Positions 9,638 through 41,081 of a stretch of DNA of 55,579 bases are shown here, in pieces. This DNA is from Sandaracinus sp. (GTDB lineage: Bacteria; Myxococcota_A; Polyangia; Polyangiales; Houyiibacteriaceae): positions 1-55,579 of the forward strand of contig PABA01000216.1 in the NCBI GenBank assembly GCA_002699025.1. Reading direction: 5' to 3'. The notes under the pieces were generated by a model. That model saw only the letters and a list, made by a program, of their open reading frames with translations, made no database searches and was not told the origin of the DNA. A program made the position numbers and the translations under genes. Numbering within the stretch: the first letter of the stretch is position 1; every line of letters starts with the position of its first letter.

Positions 9638-10576
9638 ATGCGCGCCGCGCCCTTCCTCCTCGCTCTCGCCCTCGCCGCCGCCGCCGGCTGCTCCCCCCTC
9701 CCCGAGCAGCGCGCCGTCCGCGGCCTCTACCAGGACCTGCGCAAGACCGTGCAGTTCCGCGAGAGCAACGACTGGGTCGTCGACGAGCTCGAGGTCGAGG
9801 ACGCGGCCGAGACCGTCATGCACAGCGTCTGCAAGACGGACCGGGAGACGCGCGAGGATCTGCGCATGTGGCTCGAGCAGCAGATCGAGGCCGAGGGCGG
9901 GCCCTCCCGGGCGCAGTACGAGGCCGAGGGCGAGATGAACGGGCAGATCCGCGAGGCCCGGCGCCTCGAGCGGGTGCGGGCGCTCCTCGACCGGGTCGAG
10001 GACGCGGCCTCCGAGTGCCCCTACTGGGTCGAGCGCGACGAGCGCTACGCGGGGCTCGAGGGCGACGAGGGACGCTTCGTCGTCTTCCTCGAGAGCCGGG
10101 GCGGCGGGGCCATGCTGCTCTCCAAGACCGACGAGGGCGAGCACGAGGTGCGGATCGGCGGCGGCGGCGGCGGGCGGCTGATGCCGGGCTTCGGGATCTC
10201 GCGGCGGCTCACGCTGGCGATCGGCTTCGAGGTGGGCGTCGACGGGCGCCTGCCGGAGAACGCGGGGGGCAGCCGGAGCTTCGAGGCGGTCTTCGCGACG
10301 GCCGTGCCGCTGCTCCTGCGCATCACGGACATGAACCGGGTGGTCGACCTCGAGATCTCGCTGACGAGCCGCTACGAGGACGACACGCGCCACGGCTTCC
10401 GCGTCGGCATCGGCTACGGGCTGACGACGCCGCGGGTGGCCGGGTTGATGCCCTACGGCGTGGCCTGGATCGGCTACCAGCAGATGCCCTCGGCGTACGG
10501 GCTGCCGACCGAGCACACCATCTGGCTGGGCACGCGGGTCGGCTTCGACTGGGCCCCGGGCAGCCGCGCGCGTTAG
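9638..10576 (+). CDS. Hypothetical lipoprotein
   Basis: A 312-residue protein whose ATG follows the mutM stop by one base. The N-terminus is a lipoprotein signal (hydrophobic run ending AAAAGC, Cys near residue 17), so it should be lipid-anchored on the periplasmic side of a membrane. The first half is charged and helical (for example DRETREDLRMWLEQQIEAEG). The second half alternates short strands with Gly and aromatic residues and ends in a strand-like WLGTRVGFDW, which looks like a small beta-sandwich or barrel portion. No known family is recognised. The link to DNA repair is positional only. Confidence 0.82.
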   Translation: MRAAPFLLALALAAAAGCSPLPEQRAVRGLYQDLRKTVQFRESNDWVVDELEVEDAAETVMHSVCKTDRETREDLRMWLEQQIEAEGGPSRAQYEAEGEMNGQIREARRLERVRALLDRVEDAASECPYWVERDERYAGLEGDEGRFVVFLESRGGGAMLLSKTDEGEHEVRIGGGGGGRLMPGFGISRRLTLAIGFEVGVDGRLPENAGGSRSFEAVFATAVPLLLRITDMNRVVDLEISLTSRYEDDTRHGFRVGIGYGLTTPRVAGLMPYGVAWIGYQQMPSAYGLPTEHTIWLGTRVGFDWAPGSRAR

Positions 10577-10637: not shown

Positions 10638-10774
10638 GCTCCACGCTCGGGCTCGAGCTCCTCCCTCGGGCTCCCAGCTCCACGCTCGGGCTCGAGCTGG
10701 GCTCCACGCTCGAGCTGGGCTCCACGCTCGAGCTGGGCTCCACGCTCGGGCTGGGCTCCACGCTCGGGCTCTCC
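10638..10774. repeat. Tandem repeat, 18-bp unit (CTCCACGCTCGAGCTGGG)
   Basis: Five copies of an 18-bp unit begin near 10678, 10702, 10720, 10738 and 10756, with degenerate copies before them. The rest of the intergenic stretch 10577-11013, between two converging genes, shows no further gene: reading frames through it are low-complexity Ser/Pro/Glu or Ala/Arg strings produced by the repeat. The core CGCTCGGGCTC also dominates the array at 30.8-31.2 kb. Confidence 0.9.
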
Positions 10775-11013: not shown

Positions 11014-13458
11014 TCACCGCTCGGGCGGATCCGCGAAGTGCCAGCGCTCGAGGCCGGCGCCGAAGCGCTCGGTCGGGCCGAAGTCCCAGCCCTGGAGCGC
11101 CGGGTCCGCGAGGATGCGCTCCGCCGCGAAGAGGAGCGGCAGGTTGGGCAGCCGCTCGGAGGTCAGCGCGAGGAGCGCATCCCGCAGCTGGGCCCGCCGC
11201 TCCGGATAGAGCGCGTGCTTCTCCCGCTCGACCAGCGCGTCCACCTCGTCGTCGTAGGCGTCGTGGCGCGCGCTCGCCGAGTAGGTCCCCTGCACGATGG
11301 GGAGGTTCCAGTAGCGCCGCGGCGGCGCGTCCCGCAGCCCGCGCACGATGTGGAGCAGCAGCCCGCCATGCCCGCGCGCCAGGTAGGCCCGATGGCTGCT
11401 CGGCACCTCGCGGAGGTCCACGGTCACGCCCGCCTCCTGCAGGTCCCGCGCGAGGTGCGTCGCGATCTCCCGATCGGTCGCGGACGGGCCGTGGAGCAGC
11501 GGGAGCGCCGTCTCGGTCGCGCCGAGCTCCTCCAGCGCCGCCCGGGCCGCCTCGCGATCGTGCGCGACCCGCTCCGTGCCCGGCGGCGGCTCGCCGGGCA
11601 CCGGCACGTGCGCCACCCGCCCCGCCTCGCCGTACACCTCGGCGGCGAGGATCTCCCGGTCGATGGCCTGGAGCAGCGCCCGGCGCACGGCCCGGCGCCG
11701 GAGGAGCGGGTGCTCGAGGTCCGGGTGGAGGAAGATGAACCCCGAGCCCGGCCGGATGCGCACGGCCTCGGGGCGCTCCCGCGCGATCTGCCGGGCCTGC
11801 TCCATGGTGATCGCGTTGGGGATCGTGATGTCCACCTCGCCCGCGAGGAACGCGGCGATGAGCGCGTCGACCTCCATGCGCCGCTCGACGACGCGCCCGA
11901 TGGCCGGCGCCGATCCGACGAAGTGCGGGTTCGGCTCGAGCACGACCTCCTCGCCGTCCGCGTACGAGGCGACCCGGTAGGGCCCGAGGGCGGGCACGGG
12001 GTGGGCGCGGCGGTGGTCGCGGATCGCGTCGTAGCTGCCCTCCTCGAAGACCGCATCGAGCACGTGGCTCGGCCAGGCCAGCGGCGACTCGAGCGCCTGG
12101 GCGAGGCGCCCGTCCCAGGTCACGACCAGCGTGCGGTCGTCGGGCGCCTCCCAGCGGAGCGCGTGCTCGGGCTCGAAGGCGTCCCAGGGGAGCGTGAGGT
12201 CCCGCGCGACGAGCGGGCGTCCGTCCGACCACATCAGCCCCTCGCGGAGGCGCCAGGTCACCTCCACCTCGCCGCTCGCGGCGAAACGCACGAGCTCGTT
12301 GTCGATGCCGGGCACGCGCTCGATGGCGAGCGGGAGCGGCTCCTCCGCGCCCGGCGGCGTCGGCATCAGCGACCAGCCCACCCCCTGCCAGGCGGTGCTC
12401 GCGAGGAGCGTGGAGATGCGGTTGGCGCCGATGACGAGCTCGCCGCGGGTCGAGGTGGGGCGCGGCCGCGCCGGCACGGGCGCGGGCTCGGGCGCGGGTG
12501 GGCTCGCCGGCTCGGGGATGGCGAGGGCGACGGCGACCCCGGCAGCCAGGGGGAGGACGACCCGGGCGCCGCGATCGAGGAGGAGCGCCCGGTCGGCCCG
12601 GCCCCGGCGCTGGAGCGCGTGGGCGGCGATGGTGACGATCAGCGCCGCCGAGCTGAGGACGTAGGCGATGAGGAAGAGGAGGTCGGCGAGCGTGAGGTAG
12701 GTGACCGAGGGGAGGTTGCCCGCGACCGTGAACTGGAAGGCGAAGCAGCTCAGGAGCGCCGTGACGCCGATGGAGCTCCGGGGCGCGACGGTCTCGGCGG
12801 GAAGGAAGAGCGCGACCAGCGCGACCAGCGCGATGATCGCCAGCGGCAGGAAGAGCTTCAGGGCGACCGTGAGGATCGGGCGCTGGAGGCGCACCTCGTA
12901 GGCGACGTGATGGACCGTCGTCGGGAGGCCCTCGCGGGAGAGCAGGCCGAGGTCCGAGCTGACCGTGCGGCGCTCCACGCGCGGGTGGAACTCGGGCTCG
13001 TAGAGCCAATCGGTGAGGCTGAAGCGCTCGGCCATGCCGCTTCCGGCCGCGTCCGGGACCAGGCGCCCGTGCTCCTCGGGCAGCTCGAGGACGACGGCGA
13101 CGACCTGCTCGTCGTAGGGGAAGCGCTGCATGGGGAACTCGCCCCGGAGCGTGCCGCGGACGCGCCAGCGGGCCGTGTGCCAGTCGCGGTCCGACTCCTG
13201 GCCGAGGGAGGTGCGGCGGAGCTCGGCGGCGTTCGCGACCTGGAGCTGGGTCGGGTCGAAGTCGCCGCGCCACTTCGCCCAGAGGTCGAAGTCCACGTCG
13301 ACCATGCCGTCCTTGAGGGCGAGGCGGGTGACGTCGTGGAGGTAGACGCCGACGTAGACGTCGCGGCGGGGGGCCGGATCGGCGCGCGCGGAAGACGCGG
13401 CGGCGGCGACGAGCAGCAGCGCGGGGAGGAAGGCGCGGAGGTGCCGGCCGGAGGCCAT
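11014..13458 (-). CDS. Pentameric ligand-gated ion channel fused to a peptide-type substrate-binding protein
   Basis: An 814-residue two-part envelope protein. Residues 1-26 are a signal peptide. Residues about 32-194 resemble the pLGIC extracellular beta-sandwich: LWAKWRGDFDP near 59 (loop D-like) and the Pro-loop F-P-Y-D-E-Q at 113-118, with no Cys pair, as in prokaryotic members. Four membrane segments follow: M1 about 197-219, M2 226-248 (pore; SSIGVTALLSC), M3 254-281 beginning LPSVTYLTLADLL, which matches the LPxxxYxT start of M3, and M4 299-315. In pLGICs the chain after M4 leaves on the outer face. Here a Pro/Ala linker (315-336) leads to a complete SBP_bac_5 domain (338-814) with TWRLREGLMWSDGRPL, EPNPHFVG and RRALLQAIDREILAAEVYG, as in DppA/OppA. 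Both halves are uninterrupted in one frame with uniform codon use. No peptide-transporter genes lie nearby. Likely a peptide-responsive channel; ligand and ion are unknown. Confidence 0.9.
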   Translation of the reverse strand: MASGRHLRAFLPALLLVAAAASSARADPAPRRDVYVGVYLHDVTRLALKDGMVDVDFDLWAKWRGDFDPTQLQVANAAELRRTSLGQESDRDWHTARWRVRGTLRGEFPMQRFPYDEQVVAVVLELPEEHGRLVPDAAGSGMAERFSLTDWLYEPEFHPRVERRTVSSDLGLLSREGLPTTVHHVAYEVRLQRPILTVALKLFLPLAIIALVALVALFLPAETVAPRSSIGVTALLSCFAFQFTVAGNLPSVTYLTLADLLFLIAYVLSSAALIVTIAAHALQRRGRADRALLLDRGARVVLPLAAGVAVALAIPEPASPPAPEPAPVPARPRPTSTRGELVIGANRISTLLASTAWQGVGWSLMPTPPGAEEPLPLAIERVPGIDNELVRFAASGEVEVTWRLREGLMWSDGRPLVARDLTLPWDAFEPEHALRWEAPDDRTLVVTWDGRLAQALESPLAWPSHVLDAVFEEGSYDAIRDHRRAHPVPALGPYRVASYADGEEVVLEPNPHFVGSAPAIGRVVERRMEVDALIAAFLAGEVDITIPNAITMEQARQIARERPEAVRIRPGSGFIFLHPDLEHPLLRRRAVRRALLQAIDREILAAEVYGEAGRVAHVPVPGEPPPGTERVAHDREAARAALEELGATETALPLLHGPSATDREIATHLARDLQEAGVTVDLREVPSSHRAYLARGHGGLLLHIVRGLRDAPPRRYWNLPIVQGTYSASARHDAYDDEVDALVEREKHALYPERRAQLRDALLALTSERLPNLPLLFAAERILADPALQGWDFGPTERFGAGLERWHFADPPER

Positions 13459-39737: not shown

Positions 39738-41081
39738 TCACCGGTGTGCCTCCATGCACTCGCCGGTGACTCGGAGGCGTCGGCGCTCGTCTTCCAACGC
39801 CTCCAAAAACGCGAACTGCTCCTGGGACTGGATCCACCGCGGGTGGACCGCCCGGGCCGTCTCGATGGCCTCGACGGCGCCCTGCCCCCGCCAGATCAGG
39901 ACGGCAGCGAGCAGGGTGCCCGTGCGACCGAGCCCCGCCCGGCAGTGGAAGGCGAGGACACGGCCATCCCGCAGCCACCCCTCCACCCGCTCGAGGAAGC
40001 GAACGGCGTCCTCCATGGCGGGCGCGGCCATGTCCACCACCGGGAAGTGGAAGCTGACGATGCCGCGGGCGGCGAGCGCATCCAGGGGGACGGTCGGCTC
40101 CTCCTCGAGCGTGACCAGCAGCTCGACACCGATCTCCCGGAGCCGGTCGAGATCCTCGTCGAGCTCGGTCATCAGCCCGGGCCGCGGGAGCCCGCCGAGG
40201 GCTCCGGAGAGAAGCCAGCGGAAGTCGCGCGGACCCCGCGCGGCCCGCGGCGGAGGCGGGGGACGGGTGGGCAGCTCGTCGGGATCGGCGACCTCCTCGG
40301 CGGTCGCGTTCGGGCTGGCGACCGGGCAGCCGCCGGTCTGGACGAAGTGCGCGACCAGCTCGGAGGGGGGCGAGTCGAAGAAGCGCTCCGTGTCCTCGCA
40401 GGCGAGGATGCGCCCCCCGGCGAGGAGCCCGGTCCGCCCGCCGAGCGCGCGCGCGTGGCGCTGGTTGTGCGTGATGTGGAGGAGCGCCCGGTCCTCGGCG
40501 GCCCGGGCGAGCAGGGCGAGGAAGCGCTCCGCCTCGTCGTCGGAGAGGCCCGCCGTGGGCTCGTCCGCGAAGAAGAGCGGCGGGTCGGCGAGGAGCGCCC
40601 GACCGAGGAAGAGCGTGCGCTGGACGCCGAGCGGGAGGGAGGGAACCGGGGCGTCGAGGCCGAGCGAGTCGAGGCCCAGAGCGTCGAGCATCGCCCGCAC
40701 GCGCTCGCGCTGCTCGAGCTTGGTGAGCGCGGAGCGGTCGGCGAACCCCGTGGCCAGGAGCTCGACGACGGTCCCGGCCAGGAGCCGCGCGCCCTGGCGG
40801 AGCGTGCGCGGGCGGTCGGGGGCCTCCTCGAGGGGCACACCACGGTAGAAGGCCTGGCCGCGGGTGCGGAGGCGCGGCTGGCAGTCGTTCAGGCCCGCCA
40901 GCGTGCGGAGGAGGGTCGACTTCCCGCTCCCGCCGGGGCCCATGAGGGTCACCACGCCCCGGGTCGGCACGTCGAGGTGTACGTTCGACAAGACCACACG
41001 CTCGCCGAAAGACACGCCATAGCGCCTCAGCGACAGCACATGCGAGCCCTCCTGAGCCACACCGACCACCACGACTGCCAT
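39738..41081 (-). CDS. ABC-type ATPase fused to a dual-specificity (Cys-based) protein phosphatase
   Basis: A 447-residue soluble protein with two catalytic modules. Residues about 14-250 are an ABC ATPase, nearest to PstB-type domains: Walker A GPGGSGKST (48-56), Q-loop Gln96, Walker B LFFADEP (169-175) and H-loop LHITHN (His205). The ABC signature is degenerate, LPLGVQ near 149-154 instead of LSGGQ. A Pro-rich linker (about 271-278) joins it to a DSP/CDKN3-type phosphatase (about 284-447) with general acid Asp350 in FPVVD and the loop HCRAGLGRTGT (Cys380, Arg386), fully matching HCx5R(S/T). No permease gene is adjacent, so a signalling or regulatory ATPase is more likely than a transporter. 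The following gene is Roadblock-like. Confidence 0.92.
   Translation of the reverse strand: MAVVVVGVAQEGSHVLSLRRYGVSFGERVVLSNVHLDVPTRGVVTLMGPGGSGKSTLLRTLAGLNDCQPRLRTRGQAFYRGVPLEEAPDRPRTLRQGARLLAGTVVELLATGFADRSALTKLEQRERVRAMLDALGLDSLGLDAPVPSLPLGVQRTLFLGRALLADPPLFFADEPTAGLSDDEAERFLALLARAAEDRALLHITHNQRHARALGGRTGLLAGGRILACEDTERFFDSPPSELVAHFVQTGGCPVASPNATAEEVADPDELPTRPPPPPRAARGPRDFRWLLSGALGGLPRPGLMTELDEDLDRLREIGVELLVTLEEEPTVPLDALAARGIVSFHFPVVDMAAPAMEDAVRFLERVEGWLRDGRVLAFHCRAGLGRTGTLLAAVLIWRGQGAVEAIETARAVHPRWIQSQEQFAFLEALEDERRRLRVTGECMEAHR

Follow-up and report, generated by a model that had tools for sequence, protein, structure and literature searches.

Bacterial pLGICs with an additional extracytoplasmic ligand-binding module have been known since 2004, when N-terminal fusions of PBP-I domains to these channels, together with PBP-II genes lying beside pLGIC genes, were described (Tasneem et al., 2004; PMC549065). 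Cache and MCP-N domains occupy the same N-terminal position in other members (PMC549065), and the structure of DeCLIC shows an N-terminal domain as well (PMC9897478). Sequence past the pLGIC core sometimes follows M4 too, as observed by Jaiteh et al., who discarded the termini before alignment and urged work on domain architecture (PMC4795631). The natural ligand or role is unknown for most bacterial pLGICs, and a channel with its own solute-binding protein (SBP) gives a direct handle on the physiological ligand, because the SBP domain lends itself to purification and screening on its own. The end of the chain after M4 is a known allosteric site in the pLGIC superfamily, so that a sensor attached there would be a natural experiment on the control of gating through M4, and such a fusion would also offer a template for building biosensors. 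The protein described here, from Sandaracinus sp., is of this kind, and is best read, with somewhat more confidence than doubt, as a pLGIC subunit with its own tethered clamshell, through which a probably acidic solute would modulate the gating of a homopentamer.

The gene lies in a window of 55,579 nucleotides, the whole stretch of contig PABA01000216.1 that was analysed, and runs on the minus strand from an ATG at 13458 to a stop ending at 11014. It encodes 814 aa comprising, in this order, a signal peptide, a pLGIC β-sandwich, four membrane helices, a Pro-rich linker and a complete SBP_bac_5 (cluster C) domain (Table 1). The preliminary description of the locus had proposed one uninterrupted frame with both parts, and this is borne out on the minus strand, as are the motifs that it had placed at residues 113-118 (FPYDEQ) and 249-256 (LPxxxYxT). 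Third-position G+C is 0.96-0.99 in each 100-codon window of the gene and keeps to this range across the junction; this uniformity indicates that the whole fusion frame is coding. The plus strand of 11014-13458 holds a long open frame of no relation to the fusion, a common occurrence at 75% G+C, and a promoter scan of the high-GC fusion-gene region found nothing.

Table 1. Features of the pLGIC-SBP fusion gene and its product, in window coordinates.
Feature	Residues	Coordinates	Strand	Basis
Whole gene, pLGIC-SBP fusion protein	814 aa	11014..13458	-	reading frame, Pfam, NCBIfam LGIC_1, codon G+C
Signal peptide, ends ...SARA-D	about 1-26	13381..13458	-	read from sequence
Extracytoplasmic ligand-binding β-sandwich	33-192	12883..13362	-	core model pLDDT 94; GLIC Z 24.9
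Pro-loop motif FPYDEQ	113-118	13105..13122	-	conservation in aligned relatives
M1	195-218	12805..12876	-	core model and M2/topology tabulation
M2, pore-lining helix (R0' = residue 227)	224-246	12721..12789	-	core model and tabulation
M3	257-284	12607..12690	-	core model and tabulation
M4	288-312	12523..12597	-	core model and tabulation
Pro-rich linker	314-339	12442..12519	-	alignment of homologs
SBP_bac_5 / cluster C solute-binding clamshell	338-810	11029..12447	-	Pfam and AppA structure match
R709, at position of OppA peptide-anchoring Asp (D419)	709	11332..11334	-	HMM alignment, near-invariant

The assignment of the first ~315 residues to a pLGIC holds, since pLGIC profiles match them. NCBIfam LGIC_1 gives E 4e-13, well below its own full-length cut-off, and Pfam Neur_chan_memb gives E 7e-6 (26.9 bits, just below the cut-off of 28.1), while a profile of the core and its relatives matches GLIC at E 2e-45, covering positions 2-287 of the 290 in the profile and extending from the first strand through all of M4. 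The structure-match list of the full-length model consisted entirely of SBPs, and the channel part was hence modelled and searched on its own. The resulting core model (pLDDT 94.2, pTM 0.84) matches GLIC with Z 24.9 (275 residues, rmsd 1.9) and reaches Z about 24 against GluCl and against glycine receptors, so that the β-sandwich and the four membrane helices have the pLGIC fold in the model. With GLIC and the plain bacterial pLGICs the protein also shares the Pro-loop, in which F113, P114, D116 and Q118, which include the FPxD core, are invariant among 12 aligned relatives, and a short M3-M4 loop.

The pore-lining helix of 13 of the 14 tabulated fusion-family members has the residues usual in a pLGIC pore: arginine at 0', threonine at 6', leucine or valine at 9', proline at 23', and at 2' a residue that is small or polar. 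The M2 entry of the window protein reads A-2' P-1' R0', resembling the P-A-R of anion channels, and lacks the acidic residue (E or D) found at -2' in many fusion members and in most plain relatives; given this variation, charge selectivity may differ within the family. The fourteenth member, from genome G081 (L036, G081:C101), has a degenerate M2 (V1' L2' ... F6') that has lost the usual polar pore residues and is hydrophobic at 2' and 6'. This helix is the argument for regarding the fusion proteins as receptors that no longer conduct, in which the pLGIC part serves solely to pass on a conformational change, but the pattern retained by the other 13 makes that reading very improbable. The G081 protein itself, whose linker is of 32 instead of 26 residues, is possibly a non-conducting branch.

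Behind M4, the linker varies in sequence but hardly in length, with exactly 26 residues in 11 of the 12 homologs aligned. The signal peptide and the four membrane helices place both ends of the mature protein outside, and the M3-M4 loop carries four positive charges in ten residues. A kinase relative with the same SBP (see below), whose segment after its membrane helix should lie outside, supports the same position for the segment after M4. Topology as predicted from these features thus strongly points to a periplasmic clamshell, as had been proposed, and away from a cytoplasmic one. The full-length model has a pLDDT of 78.9 and a pTM of 0.59, a value at which the relative placement of channel and SBP is not to be trusted.

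The SBP_bac_5 domain claimed at the C-terminus is complete. Pfam matches it at E 1.3e-40 over residues 400-692 (140.2 bits against a cut-off of 32.4), and in the full-length model residues 332-810 are covered by AppA (1xoc) with Z 27.7 over 446 residues; AppA, AapF, a sialic-acid-binding protein and DppA all match the tail with Z about 27. It therefore has the complete clamshell fold of the cluster C SBPs AppA, DppA, OppA, AapF and NikA (Z about 25-28), from which it differs in being anchored on a channel, in the lack of an ABC partner nearby and in an Arg where the peptide-anchoring Asp would stand. Fold similarity alone does not prove ligand binding. In OppA, D419 binds the α-amino group of the peptide. 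The HMM alignment to OppA puts R709, near-invariant among the aligned fusion relatives, at this position, with a posterior of about 0.5-0.6 there and higher beyond, that is, with moderate local reliability. The DppA-like protein of the same genome, whose gene adjoins a permease gene, reads GWNMDFPDPSNF at that site and keeps the Asp. Three more arginines, R731, R754 and R781, are near-invariant in the SBP subfamily, and at the first of these positions free-standing relatives have Asn. The expectation that the ligand is a peptide is therefore not borne out, as the anchoring Asp of OppA and DppA is replaced by a near-invariant Arg; together with the other arginines, this makes a ligand with a carboxylate or phosphate probably likelier than one held by a peptide amino terminus, although so few residues allow no more than a guess.

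The fusion gene sits between a hypothetical gene (9641-10573), itself adjoining an fpg/mutM-like gene, and pyrD, and among the 29 window genes scanned there is no permease or other component of a peptide importer, as the preliminary description had stated. No conserved neighbour or operon partner of the fusion gene was found beyond close relatives, and no shared ABC genes were recognised. That the clamshell works for an ABC importer and is merely parked on the channel, as might be expected of a cluster C family that usually partners ABC permeases, is hardly credible: the window genes scanned include no ABC permease, gene neighbours are conserved among close relatives only, and the genome has the separate DppA-like protein with its permease. 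Above the cut-off the genome has two SBP_bac_5 proteins, the fusion protein included, and its only pLGIC is the fusion protein. The single ABC ATPase domain of the window, 26 kb off, belongs to an unrelated fusion on the minus strand (39741-41081), which unusually pairs it (PF00005) with a phosphatase domain of DSP-PTPase-like type (PF22785). An 18-base tandem repeat (10638-10771; where cleanest, 4.5 copies with 98% identity) lies just past the hypothetical gene and downstream of the stop of the fusion gene.

Homologs were searched for in 184 genomes of the order, 290 of the class and 379 of the phylum, the sets overlapping. The preliminary description had called for a search for other proteins joining a channel to SBP_bac_5, and more were found: there are 16 intact fusion genes, that of the window included, with both parts in one frame and in seven Myxococcota families (genomes G000, G002, G008, G013, G015, G040, G058, G059, G064, G065, G066, G081, G235, G359, G307 and G467), those of G467 and G307 starting at a contig edge. 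It had also considered that close relatives might always have the two parts as separate genes, and no relative split in this way occurs in the order, class or phylum searches. An assembly artefact or chimera is ruled out, because homologs in seven families join both parts in frame with a near-constant linker. A further copy, in G050 (L123, G050:C138:17464-31765), is broken by frameshifts into several frames, being either a pseudogene or an assembly error; its sister copy in G081 is intact.

The window protein is 36-59% identical over its full length to 11 aligned homologs. Scored against a profile of the clade, channel parts fall into a bimodal distribution: those below 1e-79 all come from fusion genes, and among those weaker than 1e-44 no intact channel has the SBP, the single fusion-derived hit there being a fragment of the frame-broken G050 copy; in plain channels above 1e-44, GLIC-like relatives included, the chain mostly ends 2-20 residues after M4, whereas the fusion protein continues for about 500 residues. 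The fusion channels form one clade (support 97/98), and in the genomes searched the SBP is carried by every pLGIC of this clade and by none outside it. The two halves have been inherited together, their pairwise distances being correlated (r 0.955, Mantel p 0.0002) and their trees congruent, and both are under purifying selection, dN/dS in close pairs being about 0.2-0.43 in the channel part and 0.28-0.49 in the SBP. Of the two, the SBP diverges more quickly (mean distance 0.553 vs 0.458). This faster divergence, and structural matches that include MppA and DppE, binders of murein tripeptide, would fit a structural or anchoring part, holding peptidoglycan or offering a clustering surface without sensing any solute; such a role is nevertheless distinctly improbable, as the clamshell core motifs WSDG, GPY, N510 and AIDR are kept in 16-18 of the 18 fused or kinase sequences. 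The gene of G013 (L006, G013:C197), a genome of the window's own family, groups with genes of family f29 in the channel tree and in the SBP tree alike, which suggests horizontal transfer as one unit, or misbinning. A scan of 84,980 species with two short conserved peptides, which diverged fusions elsewhere could escape, gave 14 loci, titled as Myxococcota, old-style Deltaproteobacteria or uncultured bacterium. The named fusion records are all MAGs, most of them titled Myxococcales, Myxococcaceae, Sandaracinaceae or Deltaproteobacteria.

The same SBP module is found on a second kind of membrane protein. Against a profile of the SBP subfamily, intact members score 1e-54 or better and the best ordinary SBPs about 1e-28, and no free-standing member was found in the order, class or phylum searches; in the genomes searched the subfamily occurs only on membrane-anchored proteins. 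Two carriers, both in the order, are not channels. In G135 (L119:9726-12440, minus strand, G135:C33), a Pkinase domain (PF00069, residues 18-277, with HRD and DFG) is followed by one membrane helix and then by the SBP, while the G089 gene, at a contig edge, shows only the membrane helix and SBP. The G135 protein, the nearest relative that is not a channel, has an SBP of the same subfamily, about 37% identical and likewise placed after a membrane helix, and differs in having a cytoplasmic Ser/Thr kinase where the fusion protein has a channel. In a tree rooted on free-standing SBPs the kinase SBPs nest within the channel SBPs (92/96; inner forks are weak), which suggests that the kinase acquired its module from a channel.

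The reading preferred here, a clamshell tethered to and modulating its own channel, would work as follows. Five identical subunits would form the pore, in a pentamer that we infer, and M4 would end at the outer membrane face and run through the fixed 26-residue linker into the periplasmic clamshell. The ligand, probably a solute that bears an acidic group and not one presenting a free peptide N-terminus, would bring about closure of the clamshell, and closure would be passed on through the short tether and a contact with the extracytoplasmic domain, raising or lowering the open probability of an ion-conducting channel. Counting against it are the low confidence of the interdomain arrangement (see pTM above), the degenerate M2 of G081, the faster divergence of the SBP half and the exclusive origin of named carriers from MAGs. 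Tasneem et al. proposed that PBP and Cache domains, whether part of a pLGIC or the product of an adjacent gene, collect ligand (PMC549065), and a clamshell that concentrates or passes agonist to the ordinary inter-subunit site, with no allosteric contact of its own, would account for the strong conservation of the clade's extracytoplasmic domain, as though it still bound something. This alternative is unlikely, since a loose tether would not need a linker of constant length and the kinase has no pLGIC domain to deliver to. In the more specific form of the tethered-sensor reading, the chances of which appear evenly balanced, a cluster C clamshell behind M4 would gate or tune the pore from a membrane-proximal position, and the same sensor on a Ser/Thr kinase would serve a second output, phosphorylation beside ion flux.

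Ionotropic glutamate receptors resemble this arrangement in logic only, clamshells being attached to a pore. Their pore belongs to a different family, a re-entrant P-loop inserted within a bilobed PBP-II, and their clamshell to a different class; the fusion has a four-helix pLGIC pore with an SBP continuous behind M4 and not split around it. DeCLIC and the pLGICs that bear a PBP-I, Cache or MCP-N domain have in common with the fusion an extra extracytoplasmic ligand-binding module, which in them is N-terminal and of other classes. The novelty first claimed for the C-terminal clamshell has accordingly been trimmed: PBP modules on pLGICs are long known, while no earlier description of a C-terminal SBP_bac_5-pLGIC fusion was found in the open-access literature searched, and the VIA-align and Foldseek lists contain no single chain spanning both parts. 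The features that seem to be new are that the module sits at the C-terminus, that it is of the SBP_bac_5 class and that a kinase shares it. A different pLGIC, L121:4656-7856 on the minus strand (G456:C8), carries a PBP-I domain at its N-terminus (Peripla_BP_6, Pfam E 3.5e-29) and also a separate post-M4 tail of about 300 residues, for which a Pfam search named no family and in which DCSG and THVGV recall NlpC/P60 hydrolases; with this tail in mind, C-terminal additions to pLGICs may have arisen more than once.
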